Source of the DNA: Haloarcula sp. CBA1127
GTDB lineage: Archaea > Halobacteriota > Halobacteria > Halobacteriales > Haloarculaceae
Direction of reading: 5' to 3'
Assembly: GCF_001485575.1 (NCBI RefSeq)
Contig: NZ_BCNB01000006.1
Location: 1,984,001 to 2,048,000 of the forward strand
DNA length: 64,000 nt
Under the pieces are notes generated by a model. It searched no databases and had not been told where the DNA came from. It saw only the letters and a list, made by a program, of their open reading frames with translations. This document shows, in pieces, positions 34,505-38,714 of the stretch. The position numbers and the translations under genes were made by a program. The number at the start of each line of letters is the position of its first letter. Within the stretch, counting starts at the first letter, position 1.

Positions 34505-34510
34505 TTTATA
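34505..34510 (+). promoter_or_regulatory. TATA box for tRNA-Leu
   Basis: TTTATA preceded by GACA lies 35-40 bases before the first base of tRNA-Leu (34545). Initiation would then occur about 10 bases before the mature 5' end, leaving a short leader for RNase P, as usual for archaeal tRNAs. Confidence 0.55.
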
Positions 34511-34544
34511 CCGTACCGCCATGTGTATCAGATGCAACACGCGT

Positions 34545-34628
34545 GCGAGGGTAGCCAAGCCAGGAAACGGCGGCGGACTCAAGATCCGCTCCCGTAGGGG
34601 TCCAAGGGTTCAAATCCCTTCCCTCGCA
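34545..34628 (+). tRNA. tRNA-Leu (anticodon CAA)
   Basis: An 84-base class II tRNA. GCGAGGG pairs with CCCTCGC at the acceptor stem, with discriminator A at 34628. The anticodon stem GCGGA/TCCGC encloses loop CTCAAGA with anticodon CAA. A long variable arm (TCCCGTAGGGG region) and the T-loop GTTCAAATC complete it. No intron and no encoded CCA. Confidence 0.95.
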
Positions 34629-34669
34629 TCGTATAGGGGCCGCACAACGCGGCGCCGAAAGATGCACAC

Positions 34670-34738
34670 GGAAGGGTTTGAACGAGAGAAGGCGGGGCGA
34701 TTGCCCGTCTCCGCGTCGTTCAAACCCCTTCCTTCGCA
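34670..34738. repeat. Long hairpin ending in a copy of the tRNA-Leu 3' end
   Basis: The arm GGAAGGGTTTGAACGA (34670-34685) is complementary to TCGTTCAAACCCCTTCC (34716-34732) apart from one bulged C, and the inner bases (GAGAAGGCGGG against CCCGTCTC) extend pairing. The right arm together with the following bases, 34718-34738, matches 19 of 21 bases of the tRNA-Leu 3' end at 34608-34628. A further exact 11-base match (CTTCCCTCGCA) is at 34871-34881. It may be a relic attachment site or an expressed structured RNA. Confidence 0.75.
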
Positions 34739-35372
34739 CTGTTGGACCGACGCGGTCCCTCGCAAACAGTGAGCGGCCCTCGTCACGGTCGCGAGTACGC
34801 TATCGACCCCGATGGTGTCTCGTTGCGAAGACGACGGCCGACCGGTGCCGGAAGACTCGCACGGAGCGATCTTCCCTCGCAATTCTCCGACCCGATGTGC
34901 CAGAGACACGTCTCAGCGATGCAGTTTACCATGTTCTGCTTCCACTATGCTCTGTCCAGACCGGATTCCGAGGCGCGTCCGCCATGTCACAATCGGCCGA
35001 AAACAGGTCGATGTCATGCTTCCGAGTATTCGTTGGGGTCGGGTGGAATCGCGGCGCACACATTTGGGCAGCCCTCGGTGACTAGCCTGTGATATCTGGC
35101 CGATAAAGCCGGGTCTCTAATGTATTGTACCAGATCAGTTCAGTAAGTACAGCTCTAAACGCGAGCTACAGTTACTGAGACATTATATAAACTGTTTTAC
35201 CATCGGTTAATTACCATCTTATCTGTAGCTATTTATCATAAATTCATAACTGCAGAAAAACAGTCAATTCCACTCCAGTTTATATGATATATCGGTATAG
35301 AGGGCTTGTGAGAGCTCCAGAATAGTATCACTGCACAAGAAATATATCTCAGGCTTCAGTAATGTTTCAGTA
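34739..35372. other. Gene-free stretch after tRNA-Leu; promoter region of 35373 gene
   Basis: Open frames here (for example 34742-35092 plus) lack haloarchaeal codon bias and recognisable motifs. From about 35100 the DNA becomes AT-rich, with TATA-like tracts at about 35187-35195 and at 35279-35292 (TTTATATGATATAT). The latter is about 80-95 bases before the ATG at 35373. The decamer TTCAGTAATG occurs twice at the start (35355 and 35366) and once at the paralogue's start (36950). Confidence 0.45.
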
Positions 35373-36692
35373 ATGGTAAAAACACCAATAATAAAACCGA
35401 CTGTCATCTTTGTCGTGGCAGTCGCGTTGGTACTCGCTGGTCCGTTATCAGTGACGACCACTGTCGGGGCAACCCCCGTTGCTGAGAGCCAGTCGATCTC
35501 GGTGCCGGAAAACGTCGACGTGTGGGAACGGTCCCCGCTCACGCTCCGAACGATGTCAGACGGGCCGACCACGATAGTGGCACCGCGGACGTTCCTCAAC
35601 GTCGAATCAGCTGCGACTGGCGACTTGCCGCTCAACAAGCGGACGATGACGATCCACGAGCGCAACGAATCGATAAACATGTCCTTTGAACCCAGAATCG
35701 GTGCCGGAACGAGGGCACTTGCCGGCGACGAGGCGCAACTGCTGGCTGTCAAGTTAGATGAAGCACCGACTACGGCAGGGGCAAACGCCAGTAACAGTTC
35801 CCGTGCTTCCCTCGAAGATGTCTTCGCAAATAACTCGGACACTACGTCGTCGGAGCTACTCGATGACGCTGAAGGTGTCGGCACGATAGACGAGGATGGC
35901 GAACTGCAGGCGTCATACACCCCCGAATCGGGCGGCGCATACGGCTTCGTTCTGGTGACTGTCGACGAGGGCGATGAAGGGCTATCGGAGTCGGATGGCG
36001 ACGTCTCCGTCAACGGGAACGTGACCGTCGTCGGTGTCGAACAGACCGTGGTGCAGGACAACGCATCGAACGTCGAGCGGACCCAGAACCCGGTCAACCC
36101 CGGCGACAACGTCACGCTGGCTGTCGACACTGAGATGGAAGACGAAAACGCCACCCATGCGGTCCTGCTGGTCCGACAGGGCGAACTCCAGCGACAGTCG
36201 AGCACGGTGACTGTGTCGGGCGAACTGAACGAGAGCTTCTCCGCTGACCAGATCACCGTCGAGAATTCTTTCGATAACGTCAGCGGTGTTGGGACGGTTG
36301 AGAGCAACACTGGACTGGGGAGTTTCAACCTCTCCGAGAGCCAGTCGATACCTGCGATCGGATTGCAGGGGCTGTTCGGCACGGTGGTCTCCGAAGCCGA
36401 ATCGGACGCTGGCGGGGACGTTATCCATGCCTCTGCAACGATCGTCAGCGGTGACGCTGACGCCAACGTGACGGTCCAGACCTTGGATTCCTGGCCAAAC
36501 GGTGCGTATCAGTACGTCCACGTCGCAGTCGGTAACGAAACCGGGACCATCAACTCGGATACCGGCACGGTGGCAGTGAGTCCGGGCGGCGGCCCTGATA
36601 ACGGTGGTGGCCCGGGCAACGGTGGCGGTCCCCCGGACAACGCTGGCGGACCGAATGATGCTGGGGACGGCGATGAAGGGGACGCAGAATAA
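35373..36692 (+). CDS. Secreted surface protein, paralogue without C-terminal anchor
   Basis: The 439-residue protein has an N-terminal Sec-type signal (VIFVVAVALVLAGPLSVTTT) and many N-x-S/T sequons suited to N-glycosylation. It is clearly paralogous to the next gene: both share ENVDVWERS, LAGDEAQLLAV, then SGGAYGFVLVTVD or SGGAYGFILVTVD, and HAVLL. It ends in a Gly/Pro/Asn-rich tail (PGGGPDNGGGPGNGG type) and an acidic end with no PGF-CTERM helix, so it may be released or held non-covalently. ATG 35373 is fixed because the upstream ATG at 35362 runs into a stop. Role unknown; cell-surface or matrix protein. Confidence 0.82.
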   Translation: MVKTPIIKPTVIFVVAVALVLAGPLSVTTTVGATPVAESQSISVPENVDVWERSPLTLRTMSDGPTTIVAPRTFLNVESAATGDLPLNKRTMTIHERNESINMSFEPRIGAGTRALAGDEAQLLAVKLDEAPTTAGANASNSSRASLEDVFANNSDTTSSELLDDAEGVGTIDEDGELQASYTPESGGAYGFVLVTVDEGDEGLSESDGDVSVNGNVTVVGVEQTVVQDNASNVERTQNPVNPGDNVTLAVDTEMEDENATHAVLLVRQGELQRQSSTVTVSGELNESFSADQITVENSFDNVSGVGTVESNTGLGSFNLSESQSIPAIGLQGLFGTVVSEAESDAGGDVIHASATIVSGDADANVTVQTLDSWPNGAYQYVHVAVGNETGTINSDTGTVAVSPGGGPDNGGGPGNGGGPPDNAGGPNDAGDGDEGDAE

Positions 36693-36956
36693 CTGATCGG
36701 GACGGCCTTCAGTGGTTGAGTCTACCGAACACAGCACCTCTTTGTGCGCCGACGTGTGCGGATTCTACAGGCGGAGCAGGCTGAGTGCCTCGAGGTCGTA
36801 CGGAAGGCGGAGTCTTCCGTGATGACGAGACGCTTTGCGTCTCGAACCACTTGACCACGAGGTGATTCACGTGTTTTGTAAGCTTCATATGACACTGCGT
36901 ACCGTCGAATGTCACTGCATAAGAATTATACCGTATCCCTCCGAAAAAATTCAGTA

Positions 36957-38714
36957 ATGTATAAAACACCAAGAGGGAAACACACTGTAATTTGTGCGAT
37001 TACAGTGCTGCTGGTGTTAGCCGCTCCCTTGTCGGTAACGTCGGCAGCGGCAACGCCAGTGGATGACGGACAAACGACGGCAGTGACGGAAAACGTGGAT
37101 GTCTGGGAGCGGTCACTGCTCCCGCTTCGGACGTCTTCCACCGGCCCAACGGCGATAGCAGCCCCGGAAACGTACATCAATATCGAATCTGCTCAGACTG
37201 GTGACGTTCCCCTCAATAGGGAGGAGTACACGATTCACGAAACAGGCGAAGCAGTGGATCTGACGTTCGAATCAACGACCGGTGCTGGAACGACGGGACT
37301 TGCCGGCGACGAGGCGCAACTGCTCGCTGTCAGGCTCTCTGAAGGCCCAGAGTCGGCCGGATTTAGCGAAGGAAGCGTCAGAACCGATCTAGCGAGTATC
37401 TTTACAAACGATTCTAACGCCAACTCGGTCGAGCTACTAGATGACGCGGACGGGGTCGGTTCGATAGATGACAACGGTGCGCTTGAAACCTCGTACACAC
37501 CTGACTCGGGCGGTGCCTACGGCTTCATTCTGGTCACCGTCGATGATGGACAAGGACTGTCCGTTTCGGACAACAACGTTTCGGCCGATGGAAACGTGAC
37601 CGTTGTCGGCGTTGAACAGACGCTGGTTCAGGAAAGCGCGTCTACGGTCGAGGCGACCGCCGACGATGTCTCCACCGGGGATAACGTCTCACTCGATATC
37701 GAGACCGAACTGGAAGACGACTCTGTCACGCACGCCGTGTTGTTGTTCGATGAGGACGAACTGCAGGGCCAGACGAGCACCGTCCGGGTGACTGGTGACA
37801 TCAATGAGGATTTCTCCGAAGATCAAGTCACGGTCGAGAACTCCTTTGAGGGCGTCAACGGCGTTTCGTCGGCCAGTGATGGCGCTACCCTTACCGGTGG
37901 GGACTCGACAGCCGCGGGGACGATGCCGTCCGCGGGGCTGATCGGCCTGTTCGGATTCGTTCTCTCCGAAGCATCGCCGGATTCGACTGGTGATAATATG
38001 ATGCACGCCTCGGCGACAACGGTATCCGATACCTCCGATACCACCATTGATGTCGAAACGCTTGACTCCTGGTCGAACGGGACGTACACGTACGTGCACG
38101 TCGCTGTTGGCGAAGACTCAAACGAAATCAGTTCCGCCACTGGGACGGTCACGCTATCACAGTCGAACGAAACCGATTCCGGCGACGATGGTGACGATAG
38201 CGACGACGGGAGTGATGGCAACAACGGTGGCGGCGATGATGGCGGTGACGGCAACAACGGTGACGGCGATGATGGCAGTGATGGCAACAACGGTGACGGC
38301 GATGATGGCGGTGACGGCAACAACGGTGGCGGCGATGATGGCAGTGATGGCAACAACGGTGACGGCGATGATGGCAGTGACGGCGACAACAACAACGACA
38401 ACGACAATAACGGAAGTAACGACAGCGATAGCGGGAACGACGACTCCGATAACGAAGGTACTGAAGAAGACACCGAGGACAGAGTTACGACTGACACCGA
38501 CACCGACGGCACTGAGACAGTCGGGACTGAAGACGGAGAGGAGCCAACGGAAGCAGCCACGACCGCCGGTGGTGGGGCACAGCAACCCGACGAGACGGAC
38601 ACAACCGGAACGGAGGGCTCGGTTGAGACCACGAGTTCGAGCGGTCCCGGTTTCACCGTACTCGTCGCGGTGCTAGCATTGCTAGGCGCCGGATTCCTGG
38701 CACGGCGCGACTAA
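36957..38714 (+). CDS. PGF-CTERM anchored surface glycoprotein
   Basis: Start ATG 36957 (MYKTPRGKHTVICAITVLLV) is chosen because it lies in the same TTCAGTAATG context as its paralogue's start. The 585-residue protein has a signal peptide, a conserved ectodomain of about 400 residues matching the 35373 gene, a low-complexity Asp/Gly/Asn stalk from tandem 33-bp repeats, an acidic Thr-rich segment, and the terminal tripartite signal SSGPGFTVLVAVLALLGAG ending in ARRD. PGF-CTERM proteins are cut and lipid-attached by the archaeosortase ArtA in haloarchaea. The stalk should hold the domain clear of the S-layer. Function of the ectodomain is unknown. Confidence 0.88.
   Translation: MYKTPRGKHTVICAITVLLVLAAPLSVTSAAATPVDDGQTTAVTENVDVWERSLLPLRTSSTGPTAIAAPETYINIESAQTGDVPLNREEYTIHETGEAVDLTFESTTGAGTTGLAGDEAQLLAVRLSEGPESAGFSEGSVRTDLASIFTNDSNANSVELLDDADGVGSIDDNGALETSYTPDSGGAYGFILVTVDDGQGLSVSDNNVSADGNVTVVGVEQTLVQESASTVEATADDVSTGDNVSLDIETELEDDSVTHAVLLFDEDELQGQTSTVRVTGDINEDFSEDQVTVENSFEGVNGVSSASDGATLTGGDSTAAGTMPSAGLIGLFGFVLSEASPDSTGDNMMHASATTVSDTSDTTIDVETLDSWSNGTYTYVHVAVGEDSNEISSATGTVTLSQSNETDSGDDGDDSDDGSDGNNGGGDDGGDGNNGDGDDGSDGNNGDGDDGGDGNNGGGDDGSDGNNGDGDDGSDGDNNNDNDNNGSNDSDSGNDDSDNEGTEEDTEDRVTTDTDTDGTETVGTEDGEEPTEAATTAGGGAQQPDETDTTGTEGSVETTSSSGPGFTVLVAVLALLGAGFLARRD
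38203..38390 (+). repeat. 33-bp tandem repeats encoding an 11-residue stalk
   Basis: Units begin at 38203, 38236, 38269, 38302, 38335 and 38368, each reading GATGATGGC(G/A)GTGA(C/T)GGC and on to AACAACGGTG. They encode D-D-G-(G/S)-D-G-N-N-G-(D/G)-G. In-frame length (33 = 11 codons) lets the stalk expand or contract without frameshift, as expected of a variable-length surface spacer. Confidence 0.9.

Follow-up and report, generated by a model that had tools for sequence, protein, structure and literature searches.

Hairpin units copying the local tRNA tail form a candidate folded 3′ trailer behind haloarchaeal tRNA-Leu(CAA)

The tRNA-Leu(CAA) gene of Haloarcula sp. CBA1127 is followed by an array of three hairpin units, each of them ending in a copy of the 3′ strand of the tRNA acceptor stem, and the first of these, unit A, is one member of a family of haloarchaeal units placed behind many tRNA genes. 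Such trailer units have a characteristic anatomy, are conserved, covary in their stems, match the tail of the tRNA that precedes them and undergo turnover. With about even confidence, the array is interpreted here as a conserved folded 3′ trailer composed of "tRNA 3′-half mimics" and acting at the RNA level. A preliminary description of the window (the whole stretch of 64,000 nucleotides analyzed) had offered two explanations for the repeated tRNA 3′ end, traces of past integrations or a tRNA-derived structured RNA; the latter is favored by the present analysis, while the former found no support.

Anatomy of the tRNA-Leu(CAA) Trailer

The tRNA-Leu(CAA) gene occupies positions 34545–34628 of the forward strand, with U(–1) at 34544, and is preceded on the same strand by the element TTTATACC (34505–34512), located by eye 32 nt before U(–1), which we take to be a TATA-box-like promoter element from its likeness to the archaeal promoter consensus. 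Unit borders were set by cutting after every copy of the acceptor 3′ strand. Unit A (34629–34738, + strand) is a long hairpin whose borders are marked by a direct repeat of 21 bp from the 3′ end of the tRNA. Its right arm (34718–34738, + strand) copies T-arm and acceptor, repeating positions 34608–34628 of the tRNA at 19 of 21 nucleotides, and its left arm is antisense to both, the segment at 34670–34685 (+ strand) being antisense to the 3′ half of the T-arm. The repeat and the inverted repeat had already been noticed in the preliminary description, and both were recovered, the latter as 23-nt arms (34663–34685 and 34716–34738) that a repeat search found to be 78% complementary. When the 300-nt trailer was shuffled 2001 times, 8 shuffles gave a match of at least 15/21, compared with the observed 19/21, and in the whole 4.36-Mb genome the 21-mer occurred with up to three mismatches in three places only, namely tRNA-Leu(CAA), tRNA-Leu(UAA) and the copy at 34718–34738. 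The trailer at 34630–34760 folded with z = –4.1 relative to 200 shuffles.

Unit B (34739–34764, + strand) is a stem-loop of the form CTGTT-[GGACCG/CGGTCC] that terminates in an exact copy of the tail, CCCTCGCA (34757–34764), a third acceptor copy that had previously been overlooked, and its CTGTT can close with AACAG at 34765–34769. Unit C (34765–34881, + strand) ends in the same exact tail (34874–34881), within the exact 11-mer CTTCCCTCGCA reported earlier at 34871–34881 and found there again; it contains TGC at 34846–34848 and the stem GGAAGA (34850–34855)/TCTTCC (34870–34875), and can be closed by TGC/GCA. Units B and C lack the T-loop sequence, their short stem-loops running straight into CCCTCGCA. 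What is constant across the three units is a stem-loop whose helix abuts a copy of the discriminator and acceptor 3′ strand of the tRNA itself, in outline a tRNA 3′ half. A promoter and terminator scan found no terminator, its consensus being bacterial and of little use for archaeal DNA.

Further downstream in the window, positions 35373–36692 and 36909–38714 encode two tandem, similar proteins of secreted type, the second of which has a repeat rich in Gly and Asp and, at its C terminus, a hydrophobic tail that resembles a PGF-CTERM sorting signal.

Trailers Behind tRNA-Leu(CAA) in Haloarchaea

A tRNA-Leu(CAA) pattern matched 270 of 293 order-level genomes, and 137 distinct haloarchaeal loci among the matches listed were taken as a sample, in which families late in the list are under-represented. 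An exact copy of the locus's own 8-nt tail was present within 400 nt on the same strand in 134 of the 137 loci, in one to five copies, the exceptions being L048, L049 and L075; the tail recurred in 5/137 loci at 400–700 nt and in none on the opposite strand. Moreover, the copy follows changes in the acceptor: in both loci with the acceptor CCCCCGCA (L046 and L116, from genomes of different families) the unit also carries CCCCCGCA, and behind tRNA-Leu(GAG) of the CBA1127 genome a C-type unit ends in that tRNA's own CCCACGCA. Among 235 tail copies within 330 nt of Leu(CAA) tRNAs, 41 had the T-loop and 194 did not.

As the pattern was poorly adapted to the outgroup (4/196 genomes), the tRNAs of three genomes from other families of the phylum were used in its place together with those four loci. 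In this small sample of 59 tRNAs no units were seen. The own 8-nt tail recurred behind three tRNAs, each time as a 24/24 match 302–347 nt downstream, which is read as a neighboring identical tRNA gene, and the nine 24-nt copies (at least 17/24) are read as neighboring tRNAs or T-arm matches.

Two further features were observed at these loci. A loose pattern for a second partial tRNA-Leu copy, corresponding to the 3′ half, was matched less than 600 nt 3′ of tRNA-Leu(CAA) in 20 of the 137 loci (including L023, L025–L027, L032, L036, L038, L042 and L043); in several of these copies, inspection by eye revealed long additional hairpins in the variable arm and, behind the copy, another B/C array, and they may be split or decayed tandem tRNAs. 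In several species (L023, L032, L033, L035, L036), unit B occurs as a variant with an insert of about 70 nt (CTGACCGACC...GAGGACC...).

The Same Architecture Behind Other tRNA Genes

Specificity to tRNA-Leu(CAA) was considered and rejected, given that control tRNAs of the same genome share the architecture: Lys, Arg, Asp, Met, Ser, Gly, Thr and other Leu genes are followed by units of the same kind, each ending in its own tail. A covariance model searched against this genome, without conditioning on tRNA adjacency, gave 17 matches at E ≤ 0.01, corresponding to 16 sites because one palindrome was matched on both strands; about 11 of these had been in the training set. Fifteen of the 16 lay directly behind a tRNA and the remaining one behind a displaced tRNA-Phe tail, so that scattering independent of tRNA genes, of the kind that would mark a dispersed MITE- or PATE-like element, was not seen.

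Scanning named genomes with the core pattern GATTYGAATCAGGGAG-N8-38-CGACCGTGGTTCRAATC yielded at least 120 loci, and the 80 among the matches listed bore 79 haloarchaeal names and one "Euryarchaeota archaeon"; the strict core had no match in the viral collection. In these 80 listed loci, 80 of 86 core matches followed a same-strand tRNA at a distance of 33–327 nt, with 28 tRNA kinds represented. Five of the others (L194, L222, L242 and two in L249) lay less than 180 nt from the start of the stretch, which leaves no room for a tRNA. The sixth, in L205, carries the tail of a tRNA-Val(cac) that lies 3.1 kb upstream, beyond apparently inserted DNA; this position excluded it as another edge case.

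The right arm (12 nt beyond the core) agreed with its own tRNA at 0.933 and with other tRNAs at 0.491, the own tRNA being the better match in 80/80 units, and the left arm did so at 0.721 and 0.499, respectively (71/80); neither own-tRNA agreement was reached in 2000 permutations. In three congeners, copies of 24 nt followed 16/34, 22/45 and 14/30 tRNAs, compared with 0.20, 0.31 and 0.20 for other tRNA ends, a high background due to the likeness of all T-arms, and among the 45 tRNAs of G031 are those of a dense cluster of extra genes. The own 8-nt tail provided a cleaner count, with 9/34, 10/45 and 11/30 tRNAs, as against 17/1046, 57/1876 and 10/812 for the tails of other tRNAs and none for opposite-strand tails.

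The G031 cluster (G031:C27:216765-223762) holds about 20 extra tRNA genes and possibly belongs to a virus or plasmid. Another unit type was also observed, in which a hairpin like GCAAACGCGCCGCGTTTGC is followed by TCACTCCC and the local tail; it sits behind Arg(cct) and Gly(gcc) in G000:C6 and behind Gly(ccc), Arg(cct), Gly(gcc) and Lys in G031.

Stem Pairing and Covariation

Among the Leu units devoid of a T-loop, 125 of 160 testable ones had an exact stem of 5 bp with the tail following immediately on its 3′ arm, compared with 3 for the reversed word, and TGC stood just 5′ of the stem in 108 of the 125. The first triplet of the unit paired with the triplet before this TGC in 51/98 cases, whereas 1000 shuffles gave a mean of 21.7 and a maximum of 31; the commonest fully paired Watson-Crick forms of these closing triplets were CTC/GAG, CTG/CAG and TCG/CGA.

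For the unit-A family, 108 T-arm copies were available, and in 68 of them the left arm reached at least 9/12 complementarity (mean 8.76; shuffled 7.00); 43 non-redundant units were kept, and 40 were aligned after three had been dropped for length. In these 40 units, 7 of the 12 stem pairs had changed on both sides, and 42 cells of the stem were compensatory, whereas shuffles gave 15.2 ± 4.0 and none of 500 reached the observed value; these counts lean towards pairing because the rows were preselected at ≥9/12 complementarity. The covariation score of the 12-pair stem was 0.299, compared with 0.155 for shuffles and at most 0.140 for slid partners, and RNAalifold predicted only 6 pairs on the same alignment. 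Compensatory changes beyond the controls, which mark a conserved structured RNA, were thus detected both in the unit-A family, with rows chosen for 9/12 complementarity, and in the T-loop-less Leu units.

Gain, Loss and Possible Exchange of Units

In relatives such as G008, G023 and G027, unit B lies directly behind the tRNA: precisely the 110 bp of unit A are gone, and the 21-bp repeat is left in a single copy. On a tree of the upstream gene from 26 congeners, unit A underwent at least four gains or losses, which indicates that it is dispensable; under the 16/21 rule used for scoring, a decayed A-like unit in L014 counted as absent. Unit A is gained and lost as a block, probably by recombination of the tRNA tail with its copy. 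Whole blocks between direct repeats also distinguish G000 from G031 behind Arg(cct), Thr(cgt), Met and Ser(tga). The core behind Arg(cct) in G000 is nearly identical to that behind Lys(ctt) in G031, a likeness that points to an exchange of cores between tRNA loci. This likeness also suggested that the Arg(cct) unit had been freshly inserted in G000, a reading rejected since the congener G029 has the same odd ATTCTAA arm; the unit is therefore old, and its absence from G031 looks like a loss.

Such turnover could also be the work of units that are mobile at the DNA level, either small non-autonomous hairpin elements inserting at tRNA 3′ ends with duplication of the tail, or products of T-loop recombination resembling att-site cassettes and giving rise to tandem arrays, which we regard as possible if somewhat unlikely. 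Exact presence and absence between direct repeats in congeners (Arg(cct), Met, Ser(tga), Thr(cgt)), the near-identical cores at Arg(cct) and Lys(ctt), the existence of tandem arrays (L148, L245) and the fact that different hairpin types have just the tail copy in common would all fit mobile units. On the other hand, plain target duplication would not be expected to make the left arm track the local tRNA as well, the sharing of the ATTCTAA arm with G029 makes the empty G031 site look like a loss, tail copies are kept in 134 of the 137 Leu(CAA) loci, and neither a match of the strict core in the viral collection nor a responsible enzyme came to light.

It is improbable that the units are functionless relics of tandem partial tRNA duplication that have stayed similar through gene conversion. 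The putative partial tRNA copies further down in 20/137 Leu(CAA) loci and the ease with which direct repeats permit turnover are in keeping with such an origin; however, relics would not account for compensatory changes in the stems or for an internal core common to 28 tRNA kinds, and the tails have been retained in 134/137 loci even though the repeats facilitate their loss.

A True Integration at tRNA-Phe

The sixteenth site of the covariance model (925,922) has a tRNA-Phe tail, and tRNA-Phe itself ends at 941,725. Between them lies an island of about 15.7 kb (G000:C6:926066-941725) with a 14-bp tail copy (att) at about 926,066–926,079 next to the gene of a 415-aa Phage_integrase protein (Pfam E 1.8e-14). 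The DNA past the displaced unit is identical at 195 of 200 positions to the sequence directly behind tRNA-Phe in G031. These observations indicate that a true integration parted tRNA-Phe from a pre-existing unit. A similar sequence start was also noted behind tRNA-Phe in G029. A second displaced unit may be that of L205, where about 3.1 kb (L205:109-3248) with an AAA-type ATPase frame (Pfam ORC-CDC6-like) separates tRNA-Val(cac) from its unit; two neighboring frames there looked integrase-like by eye and had no Pfam match.

That the Leu(CAA) array consists of scars of viruses or plasmids integrated at the tRNA is very improbable: tRNA 3′ ends are archaeal att sites (PMC8371274), and the tRNA 3′ end does recur as a direct repeat of 21 bp around an insert whose 110 bp are exactly absent in relatives, but PF00589 is absent within 400 kb (its nearest match on the contig lies at a distance of about 404 kb, in line with the earlier remark that no integrase lies nearby), the inserts share one core across 28 tRNA kinds instead of being unrelated, a common core and covarying arms are unexpected in random relics, and the true tRNA-Phe island, with its att copy and integrase, looks different and lies ahead of a unit older than itself. 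The placement of the family behind many tRNAs, the local tail copies, the covarying arms and the contrast with this island are the grounds on which the integration part of the preliminary description was given up; two of the three Leu(CAA) units lack the T-loop sequence, which an integrase site recognized through the tail should retain, and at least one exact own tail is still kept in 134 of the 137 loci, with covarying stems. Of the contrary finding that it had named, one half, the same hairpin behind unrelated tRNAs without any island, was obtained for the hairpin family.

Proposed Role of the Trailer

In the folded trailer reading, each unit would offer a stem-loop in the place of the T-arm, leading straight into a duplicate of the acceptor 3′ strand and discriminator of the same tRNA. 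The array is most likely transcribed together with the tRNA, as suggested by 133 of 134 loci in which no run of four T occurs before the last unit ends. The 5′ acceptor strand of the pre-tRNA, or tRNase Z, would then meet several alternative 3′ partners, and these may set the rate or the order of 3′-end maturation. Since the T-loop sequence is dispensable while the helix and the acceptor strand persist, a role in pairing to the 5′ acceptor strand, or as a target of 3′-end enzymes, is favored over that of an integrase site.

A loose TTCT-like motif follows the last unit in 107/134 Leu(CAA) loci, and T is hardly enriched there (0.23 vs. 0.19), which counts against a transcribed trailer. Behind other tRNAs, the T fraction in the first 14 nt was 0.27 with a 24-nt copy and 0.33 without, over a background of 0.21; a T-rich stretch often lies between these tRNAs and the unit, and some units may therefore not be transcribed. 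A strand test based on wobble pairs, meant to separate plus-strand RNA from DNA hairpins, was mixed: in the aligned units G stood opposite T in 30/162 and C opposite A in 3/109, as against T opposite G in 3/30 and A opposite C in 23/179, a second set was weak, and in one class the C-type stems showed the opposite trend.

A broader proposal, which we hold to be doubtful and offer as speculation, is that the units form a general and previously undescribed haloarchaeal control layer, in which 3′-half mimics that track their own tRNA would compete for the 5′ acceptor strand or tRNase Z, the number of units would tune the output of single tRNAs, and the units would propagate as hairpin cassettes between tRNA genes. 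The units would represent either an unrecognized RNA control of archaeal tRNA maturation or an unusual cassette-like element that restores its local match, and both readings are open to test in Haloferax volcanii. In either case, a repeated tRNA 3′ end in a haloarchaeon needs further evidence before it is interpreted as an integration scar.

Comparison with Known Systems

At its cut-offs, Rfam 15 gave no match other than tRNA. The distal repeats of Escherichia coli tyrT, known as rtT RNA (Rfam RF00391), lie behind a tRNA, hold a copy of the tRNA 3′ end in each repeat and are made from the tRNA transcript. The present units resemble them as repeats behind a tRNA that each contain a 3′-end copy; the RF00391 model gave no match, tRNA alone reaching the cut-off. 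Unlike rtT RNA, the units have a hairpin abutting each tail copy and covarying arms, occur behind many tRNA kinds and are found in archaeal hosts.

Literature searches, including passages of PMC7714728, PMC2584109, PMC3119063 and PMC8371274, yielded no description of such units. According to PMC8371274, tRNA 3′ ends serve archaeal tyrosine integrases as attachment sites, and these tRNA-borne sites share with the units a direct repeat of the tRNA 3′ end. In contrast to them, the units are mostly about 80–110 bp long, have no integrase near, possess a common hairpin core and, in the case of B and C, lack a T-loop. The PATE elements of Haloquadratum, whose ends are described as similar to IS605-type transposons (PMC3119063), are likewise short haloarchaeal elements with palindromes; the present units, by contrast, follow tRNA genes and reproduce the tail of the local tRNA.
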